IMG/VR virus record: IMGVR_UViG_3300042197_004833
Span: 1 to 45,677 of that record
DNA: 45,677 bases
Direction: 5' to 3' (one strand)
From: a virus
In this document: piece by piece, positions 530 to 17,028 of the stretch
How the letters are laid out: every line of letters begins with the position of its first letter
How positions within the stretch are numbered: position 1 is the first letter of the stretch
Notes under the pieces: model-generated
What the model was told of the DNA's origin: nothing
Databases searched by the model: none
Seen by the model: only the letters and a program-made list of their open reading frames with translations
Program-made: the position numbers and the translations under genes

Positions 530-2347
530 CTAGCCATCGCAGCTCAGGCAGTCTTGAGTTGCACGAGCCGCAATATCTCCACGCAGCACCGATTCGGTTC
601 GCATATAATAAAGGGTCTTAATACCTGCTTCATAGGCTTCAAGGTGCACCTGATTGATAAATTTAGGCTCAGCTTCGGTTGGAAAGGCCAGATTAAGCGA
701 TACTGCCTGATCGATATACTGCTGTCTGATTCCAGCCTGTCTAACTAATTCTAGCTGGTTTATCTCTTTAAAGGTAAGAAACACGTCCTTTAGGGGAACA
801 TACAGGGAGCGTTCTGTCTCAGGCAGCTTTGCCAATTTACTGGCGGTAATTGGATTTATTTTTTCGCCGAGCTTGGCTACCCAATTATCCATAAAGACTA
901 GCCCCTGTACCGAACCGCCGTCCGCTAGGATCTGGTCCCACGCCTCTTTGGTATTGTGTCCGATTTTTTCTAAGACCCGATCTAGGGTTGGATTTTTTCG
1001 GATAAAGGTGCCTTTTGCAGTCTGTTCAGTAAAGACGTTTGCTGCCCAGGGCTCAATGCCAGCAGAAACATTGCCAGCAAGCTTTGAGTTAGAAACAGTG
1101 GGTGCAATAGCGCGAAGGTGAGTGTTTCGCATGCCAGTACCCACACACCATAACGGTTCGCCGTATTCTCTAGCCATATCACGACTCGCACGTTCGCTCT
1201 CGATCTTTATCTGAGAAAATATCTTTCTGGTTTCAAATTGCGCAACCATTGAGTCGAATGGAATATTTCTCTCCTGCAGATAAGTGTGCCAGCCTAATAC
1301 TCCAAGGCCAAGAGCTCTGCCCTTTTCGGCAGAGCGCACTGAGTTTTCAAAACCGCGCATGTATTTTGCGCGCTGGATAAACTCTTCTAATACTCCATCT
1401 AGGAACCAGGTAGCGGTATAGACAAGATCAGTGTCTTTCCACTCGTCATACTTTGCCAAGTTTAGCGAAGAAAGACAGCACACAAAGGAGTGATTTTCAT
1501 CAGTGTGGAGTGAGATTTCACTGCAGATATTTGTCATGTATACCTTTAAACCGTTCTTTTTATAGGCTTCTGGGCTCTGACGATTGACGTTGCCTTTATA
1601 CATGATATAGGGCTCGCCAGTTGCCTTACGTTTGCGAATCACTGCAGTCCAACGACGGCGTGCCTCTTTGTCTCCTTGTTCGATTTTTTGCATAAAATCG
1701 TCGGAGATAACAACACACTGGTGTAAGTTAAGGCACTGTCGATTAACGTCGCCTTTGGGTTCCCTGATCTCCAGCCATTCCCAAAAGTCTCCATGTTCAA
1801 TATCTAGGTTGACCGAAGCTGCGCCTCGGCGAACGGATCCTTGATTGGTGGCCAATACTGACGAGTCGTAGATCTTACAGAAAGGCACAATTCCATCGGA
1901 AGTACCGTTTTGTGAGATCTTTGAGCCAGCCGGCCGTATTTGATTGACCCCGATTCCGACTCCTCCGCCGTGTTTAGCTAAGAGCATCATCTCTAGGTTT
2001 TTATTGCCTATTTCATATACTGAATCACCAACGTCGATTCCAAAACAAGAGATCGGAAGGCCGCGTTCAGTACCAGTATTTGAAAAGACTGGTGTCGCAA
2101 GGTTCAACCAGCCTTTAAAAATATAATCAAAAAATTTAGAGGCCATTTCAGGCTTGCCTAAACGTTTAGCGACAGTTGTTGAAACTCGCCAATATGCGTC
2201 TTTCGGTTTTTCACCGATTAATAAATATCCCCTAGATACAGTTTTTAAATAGGTTTCAGTATGTCCCCAAATAGGATAATCTACACCAGGCTCCCAGCCG
2301 AGTGAGTTTGCTAGTAAATCTACTTCGCTTGTGTTTGATGTTTGCAT
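530..2347 (-). CDS. nrdA: Class Ia ribonucleoside-diphosphate reductase, large subunit
   Basis: The product reduces ribonucleoside diphosphates to deoxy forms together with NrdB, supplying dNTPs for phage DNA synthesis. It has 605 residues. Visible active-site features are PISC101 (first redox cysteine), N273-I-C275-S-E277 (radical cysteine with its Asn and Glu), C290/C291 (second redox cysteine), the radical-transfer pair Y580-Y581, and the C-terminal shuttle pair C600-x-x-C603 in DCLSCDG. The N-terminus goes almost directly into the substrate barrel, leaving no room for the roughly 90-residue ATP cone of E. coli NrdA. Overall activity inhibition by dATP is therefore probably absent. The start ATG 2347 lies inside the 3' end of the upstream homing endonuclease gene (28-nt overlap). 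A hairpin terminator follows. Confidence 0.97.
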   Translation of the reverse strand: MQTSNTSEVDLLANSLGWEPGVDYPIWGHTETYLKTVSRGYLLIGEKPKDAYWRVSTTVAKRLGKPEMASKFFDYIFKGWLNLATPVFSNTGTERGLPISCFGIDVGDSVYEIGNKNLEMMLLAKHGGGVGIGVNQIRPAGSKISQNGTSDGIVPFCKIYDSSVLATNQGSVRRGAASVNLDIEHGDFWEWLEIREPKGDVNRQCLNLHQCVVISDDFMQKIEQGDKEARRRWTAVIRKRKATGEPYIMYKGNVNRQSPEAYKKNGLKVYMTNICSEISLHTDENHSFVCCLSSLNLAKYDEWKDTDLVYTATWFLDGVLEEFIQRAKYMRGFENSVRSAEKGRALGLGVLGWHTYLQERNIPFDSMVAQFETRKIFSQIKIESERASRDMAREYGEPLWCVGTGMRNTHLRAIAPTVSNSKLAGNVSAGIEPWAANVFTEQTAKGTFIRKNPTLDRVLEKIGHNTKEAWDQILADGGSVQGLVFMDNWVAKLGEKINPITASKLAKLPETERSLYVPLKDVFLTFKEINQLELVRQAGIRQQYIDQAVSLNLAFPTEAEPKFINQVHLEAYEAGIKTLYYMRTESVLRGDIAARATQDCLSCDG

Positions 2348-2976
2348 ATTTTATTGTGTCTTTTTAATCCCTGTTTACTAAAATGTTTATTACAAATTAT
2401 ACATAATTGATTTTTGTCCAATATTTTACCTTTATTCCATGCAGAAATTCCGCGGTCTTTTCGAGTATTTGCTATTTTCTGTTTAGATTCAATAGTATGT
2501 TTTTTGCCTTTCATATAAGGGCCATTTTCAGATTTCCATTTTTCTAGAGCAGAAATTGCCTTTTCTCGACTATGTGGATTTAGCATCGGATTATTTTTTA
2601 GTAATCGTTCCCGGTTGATTTGCCTAGAGCGCTGCGACATGTTCCACACAGTAATTACAGATTTAGATCGAGTACGATGAGTTAATCCATTTTCTCCAGT
2701 ATAATCTATTTGATTTCCTCCATTTCCACGATTTGTTAGATTATATGATTGAGGATTATCTTTAATTTTAAAAATATTTAGAAAATGCTCTTCAAAAGAA
2801 TATGCCTCTTTTCTCGTTTTAAAAAAACGTAGTCTTTCGTGTTTAAAATTGGATATTCCATATTTTTTAATTGCTTGCATAAGATCTCGACCTGAACCAA
2901 TATATTTTTCCTTTTGTCCTGAACCATAATAGAATTTTCCGTTTATTAAATTGGTTGTTTTATAAAAATAAAACAT
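2320..2976 (-). CDS. GIY-YIG homing endonuclease between nrdB and nrdA
   Basis: This 218-residue protein has an N-terminal GIY-YIG nuclease domain, with FYFYKTTNLINGKFYYG at residues 2-18, then KYIGSG and a Glu in SFEEHFL near residue 80. The middle is a basic NUMOD3-like region (HSREKAISALEKW and GKKHTIESKQKIANTRK). The C-terminal end is a small zinc-finger-like module (CIIC, then HNKIC and KH). Such enzymes cut intronless or endonuclease-less alleles and spread by repair; phage ribonucleotide reductase genes are frequent hosts. The gene is free-standing, sits in the nrdB-nrdA junction, and runs 28 nt into nrdA in another frame. A late-promoter-like element lies just upstream. Confidence 0.9.
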   Translation of the reverse strand: MFYFYKTTNLINGKFYYGSGQKEKYIGSGRDLMQAIKKYGISNFKHERLRFFKTRKEAYSFEEHFLNIFKIKDNPQSYNLTNRGNGGNQIDYTGENGLTHRTRSKSVITVWNMSQRSRQINRERLLKNNPMLNPHSREKAISALEKWKSENGPYMKGKKHTIESKQKIANTRKDRGISAWNKGKILDKNQLCIICNKHFSKQGLKRHNKICKHQTQAK

Positions 2977-3029: not shown

Positions 3030-4292
3030 CTAACTAAATAATTCATCCTCGTCCCAATTCTCGTTTTCGCCAGCCTTTGAGTAATCGGTTGGTCGAATGG
3101 CAAAAAAATCCGTGTGGGTAGTTCCACCGGTAAGGTGGTAAAACCAATTTAGCTTGGAGGCAAAGTCATTGTCGTGGTCAAAGATTGCTTCGTAACCTAA
3201 TTCATTGAGCTTTTCGTTTGCGCGCTTTTTAATAAATTCCTTTAGGTCTAGGGCCTTTAAGTTTTCTAGGTCGCCCATCTCAAACATTTTATCGATGAAC
3301 TTAAGTTCCATTTCAACTATTAGGCAAGCAGCTGCCTCGACTTGGGGTTGTACCGAATCGCGTAACTCTGAATATTCTTCGCACATGTGGCGAAATAACT
3401 GACAGCCCATCTTTGAGTGCAAAGATTCGTCACGAACAGACCATTTCATCTGTTGACCTATTCCTTTAAGCAGGTTTCGCATTTGAAAAGAATAGAGAAC
3501 GGCAAAGGATGAGTAAAGAGAAACTCCCTCAGCAAAAGCAGAAAACACGGCCAGTGAACGAGCAACTTCTTTTCTAGCATCGGCTGATTCGGCAAGGTCC
3601 TCGTACGTATAATCTGCCCTAGTGTCTACCAAGAACTCAAACTTTTCAGCAATTGCAGGTTCATGTAAAAAGGCCTTGAAATCTTCAAGGCCCAAAGTTT
3701 CGTTTAGGTAAGAGTAGGCGGTTGCATGGATAGTTTCCTGTGAGCCAAACATCATTGCCATTTGTTTGATCTCGTGTTTGGGAAACCACTTGGTGACCAT
3801 GCCAGTCCAATAATCTGATACTGCGCATTCGGTTTGAGCAAAGCCCAGTAAAATGTTACCGACTAGGTTCTTTTCAGAAGAGGTCAGGCGTTCGTTCCAA
3901 TCTTTAATGTCTCCCTGCATCGATATTTCAGTGTGAAGCCAAACATTTTTGTTCTATTCTATCGCTACTTAGAATATTGTTTTTTTAAAAACAACTGTAT
4001 ATTTCTATACAGATCAGACTATATCATAACCAGTTAAGGTTGCCTGCATTTCCACTATCTATAGCTTATAGTGTACTCCCGTTAGGGATAGTCGTTAGGC
4101 ATTTATGAACGTGTGTTCAATTTAGCACGGGATTGTCCTTATGGAGTTTCCCCGTTTAACAGGCTTTTTCAATATTAGTTTCCTAATAAAGGCGCTTATT
4201 ACTTACGCTTGTGCTTGCTTCAACCACCCTTCTAAATAATATACTGGGTGTTCAAAGGGCTTGTATTCTATTCTTTCATCAAATAGTCCCAT
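3030..4292 (-). CDS. nrdB: Ribonucleoside-diphosphate reductase, small subunit, interrupted by a group I intron (exons 4292-4205 and 3943-3030)
   Basis: This subunit generates the tyrosyl radical used by NrdA. The long downstream exon alone lacks the normal N-terminus. An 88-nt exon (MGLFDERIEYKPFEHPV...) ends at T4205, and joining it to T3943 restores QAQA|FWLHTEISMQGD in frame, giving 1002 nt and 333 residues, normal for NrdB. Predicted metal ligands in the spliced protein are E68, E99, H102 (QETIHATAY), E168 (EGVSLYS), E202 and H205 (RDESLH), with radical Y106. The acidic C-terminal tail (NENWDEDELFS) is the expected docking peptide for NrdA. The first exon overlaps the 3' end of the upstream homing endonuclease gene by 14 nt, so nrdB now starts inside that cassette. 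A second, orphan copy of the first exon lies at 5071-5164. Confidence 0.9.
3944..4204 (-). ncRNA. Group I (IA-type) self-splicing intron in nrdB
   Basis: This 261-nt intron contains no reading frame. On the minus strand the expected elements appear in order. The P1 guide gcgcc-ttt can pair with the exon end aagcgT. P2 is TATTAG-GAAA-CTAATA. P3 is GCCTG pairing with CAGGC. P6 is TGAAC-acac-GTTCA. The R element cgactatccc pairs through P7 with the S element gatatagtc. An extra P7.1-like stem is CACTAT/ATAGTG. P8 is AACC/GGTT, and P9 is CTGTATA-GAAA-TATACAG. The last intron base is G3944. The 5' exon ends in T, as group I splicing requires, and the predicted splice restores the conserved NrdB sequence. 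Exact boundaries are inferred. Confidence 0.9.
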
Positions 4293-5046
4293 TGGTTTTT
4301 ATTTTTTTTAATGTGTTACTTATTTTCTTTTTTCTTTCTTCTGAAAGTTTGCTATTTAGCAATGCCTCTCTAATTTTTTGTTTTGTTTGTTCAGACAATT
4401 TTCGTCCTTTTCTTGATTCTGATAGTTTTTTAGATCTAATTTTTCTTTCTTCGCTGGTCAAATGTGACCACTTATCCCCACCAAAACCTCTTTCTTTTGC
4501 AATTTTAGAAATAAGTTCCTTTGTTTCAGTTGATAATTTTTTCCCTTTACTGGGATGGTCAGTATACTTATACTTATTTTTTAGAGTATTTGAAATTTTA
4601 TTTTTATATTCGTTTTGTTTTTCTTGACTTAATTTTTTAAGCCACCCTTTGTGTTTGATAGATTGTTTTTTTCGGGTTTCACTAGATACAGAATGGCCTA
4701 TAAGAGATTGTGAAACTTTTTTGTTTCTCTTTTTTATTATAGATTCTTTTTTAGGATTATTTTTAAGAGTATCGCCACCTAATGCAGCATCTTTCAAATT
4801 ATAACTTTTTGAATTATTTGAAATTTTATACAATTTTAAAAATCTGTCCTCAAACATAAACGCTTTCTCTCTAGTTTCAAAATATTTCAAGGGTGTGTGC
4901 TCAAAATTTTCTTTTCCATATTTTTTTATAGCTTTTTCTAATAAAGGACTTGATCCAAAATATTTTTTTTCATTTCCTACAGTACTAGTGCCATAATAAA
5001 ATCTTCCATTAATTAAATTTTTTGTTATGTAAAAATAGCCTTTCAT
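4279..5046 (-). CDS. GIY-YIG homing endonuclease between two copies of the nrdB first exon
   Basis: This 255-residue basic protein starts at ATG 5046 (MKGYFYITKNLINGRFYYG), which fits the GIY-YIG domain exactly. A longer in-frame start at 5121 exists but reads out-of-frame nrdB exon and is not used here. The nuclease core includes YFYIT...FYYG, a KKYFGSS loop and the catalytic-type Glu in FMFEDRFLK. The C-terminal half carries repeated NUMOD3-type DNA-binding motifs (SKGKKLSTETKELISKIAK, SRKGRKLSEQTKQKIREAL, KLSEERKKKISNTLK). The gene lies 24 nt after orphan exon A and overlaps the functional nrdB exon B by 14 nt. It is probably the mobility factor for the adjacent exon plus intron block. Confidence 0.9.
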   Translation of the reverse strand: MKGYFYITKNLINGRFYYGTSTVGNEKKYFGSSPLLEKAIKKYGKENFEHTPLKYFETREKAFMFEDRFLKLYKISNNSKSYNLKDAALGGDTLKNNPKKESIIKKRNKKVSQSLIGHSVSSETRKKQSIKHKGWLKKLSQEKQNEYKNKISNTLKNKYKYTDHPSKGKKLSTETKELISKIAKERGFGGDKWSHLTSEERKIRSKKLSESRKGRKLSEQTKQKIREALLNSKLSEERKKKISNTLKKIKTNGTI

Positions 5047-5058
5047 TTTTTCTTTATT

Positions 5059-5070
5059 CTTATTTATTTG
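5059..5070 (-). promoter_or_regulatory. Late-promoter-like element of the homing endonuclease/nrdB cassette
   Basis: CAAATAAATAAG on the minus strand begins immediately after the conserved end of orphan exon A and ends 12 nt before the endonuclease ATG. It may let the endonuclease gene and the nrdB copy behind it be transcribed independently of the original nrdB promoter. Confidence 0.45.
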
Positions 5071-5164
5071 AAGCTTGGGCCTGTTTGAGCCAGCCCTCGG
5101 TGTAATAAATCGGATATTCAAAAGGTTTGTATTCGATTCTTTCTGTAAATAAGTTACTTTTCAT
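5060..5164 (-). pseudogene. nrdB: Orphan first exon of nrdB (copy A)
   Basis: A 34-codon frame starts at ATG 5164 (MKSNLFTERIEYKPFEYP...) and is homologous to the functional first exon at 4292-4205. Over the aligned 27 residues from LF to QAQA, 23 are identical, while many codons differ at third positions. Similarity stops at T5071, the same codon position at which the group I intron interrupts copy B. Three unrelated codons (SNK) and a stop follow. No intron core or P1 partner lies next to it, so it probably cannot be spliced to the body of nrdB. It looks like the displaced original start of the gene. A translated 34-residue peptide is possible. Confidence 0.85.
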
Positions 5165-5317
5165 GTTCTTTTTTCTACTTATTTTAGACAATGGGTGCTG
5201 ATCACTAGGCTGTACTAATAATTAACGTGGTTTAAATAAAACTTATTTAGGAGTTGTAATCGGCCATCCAAGATTATTTATCTGATGGGTCCGATGATGA
5301 GCTTCCACGGAGAAAAA
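5165..5317 (-). promoter_or_regulatory. Intergenic region before the nrdB locus with a late-promoter-like element at 5270-5283
   Basis: The minus strand carries AGATAAATAATCTT at 5270-5283, identical to the sequence before the MORN-like gene. A TAAATAA/TTATTTA inverted repeat with a 3-nt spacer lies at 5233-5249. These could drive the nrdB/nrdA unit with a leader of about 100 nt. I see no convincing terminator for the S1-domain gene and no reading frame of useful length. Confidence 0.4.
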
Positions 5318-11090: not shown

Positions 11091-13492
<2,402 letters not shown>

Positions 13493-15503: not shown

Positions 15504-16088
15504 TTAATTTTCAGCAATGGGATCGATCTCTGCCTTTACTCCATTAGTATTTCTTTTAGAAGTACGATGGATATGCGAGTCGACAGTACTGGTACTTCGA
15601 TTGGGATCTGCCTTCCAAAACTCGTGTCGAATTATCTGGATAATATCGAAGGCCTCACGACAGGACTCATCGACCTGTGGATTGTGAATGCCAAGGCTAC
15701 CGCTGCCGCCTAAACAAACATCTTCATTTGAGACAATATAACCGATCTGTCCGCCGAGTAGGCGAATTGAATCTCGACAAGAGTGCACTCGAGACCAATC
15801 TGGAGAACGTTTTACCTGGTCAACATCATGCCAGGTACGAATCTCTTCACCATTACCCCAGCGGCCTTTGGTCTTGATGTAATCCTTACCTATCTCGACC
15901 ACCTCTCCTCGAACAGAGCTGTCTCCTACTTTAAGTGGAGCAGGGTTGGTAAACCTTTCCTGTATCTGTGAGTCGATTGAAGGATGGTCTAGGATAGGCC
16001 AAAACTGGAGGATCCCAATTCTTGAATAGAGATCTAGCGCTCTCTGTACGAGTCGCAATTGTTCATTAGTTAACGTTAGTGTTGCCAT
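15504..16088 (-). CDS. Conserved-type phage hypothetical protein, 194 residues
   Basis: The start is ATG 16088 (MATLTLTNEQLRLVQRALDL). A farther upstream ATG at 16145 would lie fully inside uvdE and gives an unrelated N-terminus. The N-terminal helix LTNEQLRLVQRALDLYSRIGI is typical of a small protein common in tailed phages (recalled). The middle contains VRGEVVEIGKDYIKT and a Gly/Ser-rich GGSGSLGIHN. The C-terminus DSHIHRTSKRNTNG is basic. The role is unknown. It overlaps the uvdE stop by 23 nt, so the two are probably co-expressed. Confidence 0.7.
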   Translation of the reverse strand: MATLTLTNEQLRLVQRALDLYSRIGILQFWPILDHPSIDSQIQERFTNPAPLKVGDSSVRGEVVEIGKDYIKTKGRWGNGEEIRTWHDVDQVKRSPDWSRVHSCRDSIRLLGGQIGYIVSNEDVCLGGSGSLGIHNPQVDESCREAFDIIQIIRHEFWKADPNRSTSTVDSHIHRTSKRNTNGVKAEIDPIAEN

Positions 16089-17028
16089 GGTTTTCGAATT
16101 CAAATAGTTTTTGTAAAAATGGTGCAGTAGCTTTAGTGTCTTCACGATACTTTAGGATGGCCAGGTCCTTGGCCTTAGCCTCGACCTCGACATCACAGTC
16201 TAGGCCGTAATCGGGAATGTAATCCCAAACATAGTCGGCATGCGAACGATTGATGACAGAGGAGTCTTCATAAAGAGACTTGGGACTGGAGAAGTGCTGC
16301 ATAGGGCGGTGGCCGTGCCAAGTAGTAGAGGCCAGCTTTGCAGCGACCTCGGCAGTAAGATCGTTAGTACATAGACGATGGTGTAGGTGGTCGAAGGTGA
16401 TGGGGCAACCGATCTTCATATTGATGCCCTGATAGAGATCCGCAACACCGAACTGAGAAGCCTTATCATCGTTTTCGACCACAAGCCGAGCACGGGTGCT
16501 GGTGGCAAGGCGGGTAAAGTTTTCACAGAACCTGGCCAAGGCAGATTCCTTGTCGCCGTAGGTGCCACCGACATGGATATTGATGGGGGCACTGTAATCC
16601 TGCGGCAGACCCATTAGATCCATGATACGAGCATGCTGGTCTAGGTCATAGATCGTCTTGCGCACCACCTCTGGATTGGGGGAGGCCAGCACATCAAACT
16701 GGCCGGGGTGAAAGGAGATACGAAGGCCATGTTGGCGTGCATACACGCCGATCTGCTGCATAAGCTGCTGCAGAGTAGCAAAGTTAGGCAGCTCCTCGAA
16801 CCGGTACTCGCTCATCCAAGGAAAGATATCACTGGACATACGATAGACTTGAATATCGTGAGCAACATTCCACTCGAGAATAACAGCAAGATCACGCAGG
16901 TTCTGCTCGGCAAGCTGGCCGGCTCGGGCCTTGCCCTGTTCGAGCCAAGTCTTTTTGATCATGCCGCGATTGATTGTGATGCCCTGATCGCGAAGGCTTA
17001 GGTTGATACAGCAATATCCTAGTCTCAT
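16066..17028 (-). CDS. uvdE: UV damage endonuclease (UvdE/UvsE family)
   Basis: This 320-residue TIM-barrel enzyme nicks DNA 5' to UV photoproducts, starting alternative excision repair. The family landmarks are present. MRLGYCCINLSL is at the N-terminus, followed by YRMSSDIFPW, then RISFHPGQFDVLASP, INIHVGGTYGDK, VVENDD, ITFDHLHHR and HADYVWDYI. His, Asp and Glu residues in these segments form the expected metal cluster. Length is normal for the family and no domain is missing. The coding sequence is visibly more GC-rich, with more G/C-ending codons, than the surrounding genes, which hints at separate acquisition. It heads the leftward accessory unit at the divergent intergenic region. Confidence 0.92.
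   Translation of the reverse strand: MRLGYCCINLSLRDQGITINRGMIKKTWLEQGKARAGQLAEQNLRDLAVILEWNVAHDIQVYRMSSDIFPWMSEYRFEELPNFATLQQLMQQIGVYARQHGLRISFHPGQFDVLASPNPEVVRKTIYDLDQHARIMDLMGLPQDYSAPINIHVGGTYGDKESALARFCENFTRLATSTRARLVVENDDKASQFGVADLYQGINMKIGCPITFDHLHHRLCTNDLTAEVAAKLASTTWHGHRPMQHFSSPKSLYEDSSVINRSHADYVWDYIPDYGLDCDVEVEAKAKDLAILKYREDTKATAPFLQKLFEFENHGNTNVN

Follow-up and report, generated by a model that had tools for sequence, protein, structure and literature searches.

A stranded native start beside a foreign exon, intron and endonuclease gene suggests one-sided homing into phage nrdB

In a 45,677-base phage fragment—the whole stretch of DNA analysed here, referred to as the window—the nrdB gene is native up to T5071 and native again from T3943, and between these two bases, i.e. 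at a single point of the gene, lies a foreign block of 1,127 nt (5070-3944) consisting of a short leader, a GIY-YIG endonuclease gene (HEG1), a replacement first exon of nrdB (exon B) and a 261-nt group I intron. We consider it likely that this state arose when a homing event put a composite mobile unit, made up of the endonuclease gene, an overlapping foreign nrdB first exon and an intron without an open reading frame (ORF), into the intron insertion site of an nrdB that had been intronless, with the phage's own gene start (copy A) being left behind upstream. Selfish endonucleases usually reside in introns, inteins or intergenic gaps, i.e. outside of coding sequence, because an insertion into a gene would be expected to kill. 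In the present case, a replacement for the broken part seems to come with the invader, and the guide of its intron is matched to this replacement. The full arrangement is known from one metagenomic contig, i.e. the window itself.

Organization of the nrdB locus

Read directly on the minus strand, the locus comprises, in this order, an S1-domain gene, the native nrdB leader, copy A, HEG1, exon B, the group I intron, nrdB exon 2, a second endonuclease gene (HEG2) and nrdA. The coordinates of the original prediction, which had been made from the sequence before any comparison, turned out to be exact to the base, and so did the 14-nt overlap of endonuclease gene and exon B that it had pointed out, with the GIY-YIG gene extending from 5046 to 4279 and the ATG of exon B at 4292. 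The features are, in window coordinates:

6499-5318, minus strand: S1-domain gene
5163..5317, minus strand: native nrdB intergenic leader, now preceding copy A; over 118 nt, it shares 74.6% identity with its counterpart at the uninterrupted nrdB of L002/L003/L090
5060..5164, minus strand: copy A, the stranded native nrdB start, now an ORF of 34 codons, native through 5071
5047..5070, minus strand: left end of the foreign block, a short AT-rich leader of HEG1, at which the native GCN|TTY is lost; a similar CAAATAAATAA leader precedes HEG2
4279..5046, minus strand: HEG1, a GIY-YIG endonuclease of 255 aa with NUMOD3 motifs (Pfam NUMOD3, invariant residues, fold match to I-TevI)
4279..4292, minus strand: overlap of HEG1 and exon B, 14 nt by their reading frames (8 nt in the L099 counterpart)
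4205..4292, minus strand: exon B, foreign replacement for the first exon of nrdB
3944..4204, minus strand: group I intron of 261 nt without ORF
4192..4208, minus strand: predicted P1 helix, formed by exon and guide; exon end and guide are identical in L099
3030..3943, minus strand: nrdB exon 2, the native body of the gene (Ribonuc_red_sm)
2320..2976, minus strand: HEG2, a second GIY-YIG-like endonuclease gene, overlapping the nrdA start by 28 nt; an 86% identical relative occurs in L002/L090
2347-530, minus strand: nrdA
2150..2347, minus strand: nrdA start of the type that travels with HEG2, right limit approximate (L002/L003 comparison)

Elsewhere in the window, a tandem array with a period of 84 and 4.3 copies (57-416) lies past the 3' end of nrdA and close to the end of the contig, and positions 11091-12731 and 16066-17028 encode a Cpn60/GroEL-family chaperonin and a UvdE-type UV endonuclease.

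Copy A as the native start of nrdB

Copy A begins with an ATG at 5164 (MKSNLFTERIEYKPFEYPIYYTEGWLKQAQA), consists of nrdB sequence through T5071 and ends as an ORF with a stop codon at 5062-5060, and exon B begins with the ATG at 4292 and reads MGLFDERIEYKPFEHPVYYLEGWLKQAQA down to 4205. The original prediction had taken the two for diverged copies that differ at many silent sites, and they indeed agree at 23 of 27 residues but at no more than 57 of 81 nt; 13 of the codon differences are synonymous and four are non-synonymous. As flanks of one and the same endonuclease they score 94, i.e. above chance (the 99th percentile of 1,716 cross-paired flanks is 46).

It had also been proposed to align nrdB from relatives free of the cassette and to place both copies in a phylogeny. 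Among the 80 closest nrdB loci in viral contigs, which form our comparison set, the first exon is continuous with the nrdB body and devoid of an intron in every case, and the insertion point reads GCN|TTY, i.e. an Ala codon followed by a Phe codon, in 79 of them; none of the 80 carries both exons in the absence of the endonuclease, a constellation that had been named as counter-evidence. In copy A this motif is broken: its sequence reads GCT T|CAAATAAATAA and leaves the native course exactly where exon B meets the intron, in agreement with the claim that its similarity stops at the intron position.

Over its 27 codons, copy A differs from the nearest relative, L001, by four synonymous changes and no amino-acid change (77/81 nt identical), whereas exon B matches L001 and copy A equally poorly (57/81 nt each) and other phages better (up to 69/81). 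Consistent with this pattern, copy A groups with L001 (100/96) in the exon-1 tree, which has 81 columns only and resolves little besides this pair, with exon B being placed elsewhere, i.e. not with the lineage of the window; the tree of the nrdB body also joins the window to L001 (100/100). Moreover, copy A is preceded by a leader with homology to that of the uninterrupted nrdB in L002/L003, and the beginning of exon 2 is as close to L001 as the remainder, with 28 of its initial 30 bases being shared. Since copy A is grouped with L001 just as the nrdB body is, and since it lies behind the native leader, these comparisons show copy A to be the phage's own nrdB start and exon B to be foreign, in line with the displaced native start that had been suggested.

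The similarity of the two encoded peptides (23/27) could also come from a duplication within the phage that was followed by divergence. This origin was rejected, and it is hardly conceivable, because copy A stands with the phage's own lineage and exon B does not, the latter being as far from copy A as from L001 and closer to other phages.

The intron and its fit to exon B

The intron (4204-3944) matches Rfam RF00028 with 72.2 bits (cut-off 50, E 2e-18), and its fold is 3.4 standard deviations better than that of shuffled sequences. A scan of the whole window at the gathering threshold had missed it owing to a filter effect, and null results from whole-window scans of this type are therefore not to be trusted here. 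The terminal base of the intron is G3944, and in the predicted fold the P1 helix consists of the exon bases GCGU (4208-4205) and the guide GCGC (4195-4192), with a U-G pair at the splice site (U4205-G4195). As claimed originally, only exon B adjoins an intron core, and the predicted joining of 4205 to 3943 restores the frame and yields an uninterrupted NrdB of 333 residues.

At the Ala codon of the site, GCG is found in 13 of the 80 relatives, and both intron-bearing alleles, i.e. those of the window and of L099 (see below), have GCG. Copy A ends with GCU-U and exon B with GCG-U, copy A thus being devoid of the guide-pairing base at position -2; with copy A, the pair adjoining the splice site would be missing, and the fit to the guide would be poorer than with exon B. 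By the same logic, an intron arriving without its own exon would be expected to splice less well, because its guide is matched to GCG-U. The use of exon B, and not of copy A, as the first exon of nrdB is supported by this pairing logic and by the reading frame, i.e. by two features of the sequence.

Alternatively, copy A might be a working first exon, or a regulatory leader peptide, that selection maintains and that is joined by long-distance or trans splicing, and its frame is in fact intact, with all 27 amino acids as in L001. Such intactness, however, is equally expected after a recent insertion, and copy A encounters a stop codon 9 nt on and is devoid of the guide-pairing base at -2, whereas exon B has this base and lies 9 nt away from the guide; a working role of copy A thus seems highly improbable. 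The preferred reading of copy A remains that of a stranded native start.

A search with the intron core sequence for related introns also brought up L158/L159, where a related group I intron within thymidylate synthase has a GIY-YIG gene inside, unlike the ORF-less intron in nrdB.

The endonuclease HEG1

Residues Y6, Y17, G19 and E66 of HEG1, which occupy the positions of the catalytic Tyr, the Tyr-x-Gly and the Glu, are invariant in 22 relatives. With Pfam, HEG1 passes the cut-off for NUMOD3 (26.4 bits versus 20.4), and its 14.9 bits for GIY-YIG stay below the curated cut-off of 22.6, which reflects a detection limit and not a biological feature. The AlphaFold model has a confident N-terminal domain, and its top PDB match is the catalytic domain of I-TevI (probability 1.00, E 3.3e-3), whereas a sequence search of the PDB with HEG1 gave no match.

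Between HEG1 and the L099 enzyme, identity amounts to 50% in the DNA-binding half versus 33% in the catalytic half, and the catalytic half of HEG1 is closest to HEG2 and to the L091 relative (51-52%). This is consistent with a common target of HEG1 and the L099 enzyme, one catalytic domain having been swapped. From the clean junctions in the window, we infer that HEG1 cuts intronless nrdB at or directly next to the intron site.

L099 as a donor-like unit

Group I introns end in G, and viral contigs were scanned for nrdB alleles with a G directly before the second exon. A stricter pattern for intron-bearing viral nrdB alleles gave no match, and a looser pattern matched ten viral contigs, one of which, L099, is nrdB; among bacterial genomes, there were 56 pattern matches for an intron-bearing nrdB at the identical site, none of them reading as nrdB. 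In L099, a gene for a 250-aa GIY-YIG endonuclease overlaps the nrdB start by 8 nt and is followed by the first exon and a group I intron (95.3 bits) at a position identical to that in the window. The two introns are 77% identical, and the guide is the same in both, as are the final 13 bases of exon 1; a hairpin near the 3' end of the intron keeps its pairing despite changes on both sides (CUGUAUA/UAUACAG in the window versus CUGCAUG/CAUGCAG in L099). Linkage of an endonuclease and an intron at nrdB was seen in the window and in L099 only. Upstream of the nrdB start, L099 has no stranded copy, as expected of a donor, and its exon 1 shows no close similarity to exon B; we take L099 as a likely representative of the donor type only.

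Upstream of the unit, a DNA polymerase gene is found in L099 versus the S1-domain gene in the lineage of the window. It is unlikely that the cassette broke this polymerase gene, as the ORF of the relative LR756500 ends at almost the same place and is then followed by endonuclease-like sequence; an old split appears more likely. Polymerase ORFs of 467-472 aa with near-identical ends occur in L099 (2654-4057, minus strand) and in L241 (from 4001), each directly followed by an endonuclease-like gene, and probably represent a split polymerase.

One-sided homing and competing histories

In donors such as L099, the endonuclease gene would abut and overlap the nrdB start, with the intron just behind the first exon. 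After a cut by HEG1 in an intronless nrdB, at the intron site or adjacent to it, the broken exon-2 end of the recipient would invade the donor by homology, and copying would proceed leftwards through the intron, the exon and the endonuclease gene. Because donor and recipient have nothing in common upstream of the endonuclease, the far end would then be ligated, with no homology involved, to native exon 1 at the cut, and the native start would thereby remain upstream as a stranded short ORF. Ordinary repair on both sides, by way of the first exons with their 70% similarity, could have moved the intron, not the endonuclease. The gene should nevertheless keep working, since the unit supplies an in-frame start and a first exon whose GCG-U pairs with the guide.

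Thus, of the invading cassette envisaged originally—a promoter, the endonuclease, its own replacement exon and the intron, landing at the intron insertion site—the latter three components are borne out, with the block lying exactly at the site and L099 having the same kind of unit; a promoter within the cassette stays conjectural, and the native leader still lies upstream of copy A.

Both borders of the foreign block coincide with the intron site, and exon 2 contains no foreign stretch. This bears on a stepwise history with at least two recombination events, in which either a foreign intron-bearing allele first replaced the nrdB start or the endonuclease landed first. HEG1 itself does look recombined, with its HEG2-like catalytic half and its L099-like DNA-binding half, which suggests that the locus has recombined more than once. 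Two successive events, however, do not readily account for both borders lying at one point and for exon 2 being native from its very beginning; in addition, endonuclease, exon and intron are already linked in L099, and an endonuclease on its own in the coding region would break the gene. We therefore consider a stepwise origin unlikely.

Less probable still is a chimeric assembly of two phage strains, according to which no molecule would carry both copy A and exon B. There is but the single contig, and the left junction was absent from the other viral contigs searched. Yet the longest exact matches able to bridge the junctions are 8-11 nt, which makes ordinary misassembly unlikely, and both breaks fall exactly on the intron site; moreover, L099 has the right part as a unit, too, and independent contigs repeat the pattern of stranded gene ends next to related endonucleases (see below).

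Relation to known mobile systems

The closest analogues come from fungal mitochondria: in Allomyces and Glomus, inserts have been described in which a foreign gene end arrives together with an endonuclease and the native end stays behind (atp6, atp9, cox2, nad3; PMC3630166). In these inserts it is a C-terminal end that is foreign, and the displaced copy matches close relatives, which the inserted copy does not (PMC3630166). The window shares with them the displaced native end, the foreign end in frame and the endonuclease beside it, and Glomus cox2, where a foreign end and an endonuclease occur with a group I intron and the native end is displaced (PMC3630166), has the same components in mirror order; N-terminal duplications accompany six introns in Tremella (PMC7315562). 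In contrast to the fungal inserts, the window belongs to a phage, it is the 5' exon that is replaced and the product requires that the ORF-less intron, which immediately follows the new exon, be removed by the predicted splicing.

In collaborative homing, an ORF-less intron is found with a nearby free-standing endonuclease, as in cyanophage psbA/F-CphI and ICP1 terL, and according to a recent survey the way in which endonuclease and intron become neighbours is not clear (PMC10448857). The window resembles these cases in its ORF-less intron, in the endonuclease gene beside the first exon and in the expected target, i.e. the intron site. In the portions of the survey considered here, however, collaborative homing is described without a displaced native exon (PMC10448857), whereas the window seems to preserve an acquisition event. 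By analogy, the unit in the window may work like the fungal inserts and collaborative homing combined, which would be a likeness in working rather than membership by descent. The locus thus looks like a collaborative-homing acquisition preserved together with its debris, which makes the question of origin testable on named sequences.

In phage T4, mobE lies beside nrdB, nrdB contains a group I intron and homing occurs in trans (PMC2988022). The window likewise has an endonuclease gene adjoining nrdB and a group I intron in nrdB; however, mobE is of the HNH type and HEG1 of the GIY-YIG type, the T4 intron is located after about codon 220 and that of the window at codon 30, immediately ahead of the conserved FW motif (exon 1 has 29 codons), and the T4 system is without a duplicated exon. 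In Aeromonas phage Aeh1, mobE is inserted in nrdA, and the two protein pieces assemble (PMC2988022). The window would similarly have an endonuclease gene inside a ribonucleotide reductase gene without loss of function, but with the start being replaced, its protein should be whole instead of consisting of two pieces. A precedent for such a unit in phages was not found in the open-access literature.

Stranded gene ends beside related endonucleases

Seventy loci with relatives of HEG1 or of the L099 enzyme, picked on enzyme similarity and not on their flanks, were screened for similar peptides on both sides of the endonuclease, using the same 99th percentile of cross-paired flanks (46); the highest-scoring cross-pairs appear to join loci with a common gene. 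Four loci score 81-101, i.e. the window, L229, L224 and L210. In L229 (3576-4849), a thymidylate synthase start of 26 codons is putatively stranded and the new start overlaps the endonuclease by 4 nt, and in L224 (3880-4936), the putative stranded start of a gene for 93 aa precedes a GIY-YIG endonuclease. L210 (3998-4697) is the mirror image of the window, with the last 24 codons of nrdB being repeated behind a GIY-YIG endonuclease, i.e. a putative stranded 3' end. One group of four loci (L175, L187 and L199, near 3900-4640, and L236, 3959-4740) has scores of 45-49, which are borderline when taken alone; here, the first 12-14 codons of a gene for 173 aa are putatively stranded before the endonuclease, in L236 even fused to it in frame. 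In total, the endonuclease overlaps the start of the next gene by 4-20 nt in 16 of the 70 loci, six of which have a stranded start. No introns were found beside the other stranded gene ends; of the scans made there, the one at the gathering threshold is uninformative, as the same type of scan missed the intron in the window.

Similar stranded ends beside related endonucleases suggest a repeated mode of invading essential genes without killing them. More generally, free-standing GIY-YIG endonucleases of these phages might repeatedly invade coding sequence by one-sided homing, in that they overlap a substitute gene end, cut near that end and are repaired in, with the native end being stranded. 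In the course of the endonuclease life cycle, phages would thus exchange starts and ends of essential genes with one another, and the origin of collaborative homing arrangements would be accounted for by the linkage of endonuclease, exon and intron in one unit; to this proposition as a whole we give even chances. If the ends of essential phage genes are exchangeable in this way, as the wider screen suggests, this would mislead both gene calling and gene trees.

HEG2 and the start of nrdA

For HEG2, the contigs L002 and L003 provide a pair of states before and after its arrival. They are near-identical in nrdB (94-100% in 90-nt blocks) and, from about base 270, in nrdA (96-100%), and HEG2 is found in L002 and not in L003. 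The first ~200 nt of nrdA in L002 are of the window type (88% identical to the window versus 64-78% to L003) and are followed by a switch to the L003 type. Since the nrdA start in L002 is first of the window type and then of the L003 type, and since of the two only L002 has HEG2, we conclude that HEG2 came in along with an nrdA start of its own. This was a replacement without debris, i.e. the ordinary outcome of co-conversion, in contrast to the one-sided outcome at nrdB; in the window, too, no stranded gene end was detected beside HEG2 (score 34). In L091 (672-1745), NrdA starts with a stretch that resembles an intein end (Pfam Intein_splicing, with a score below the cut-off).
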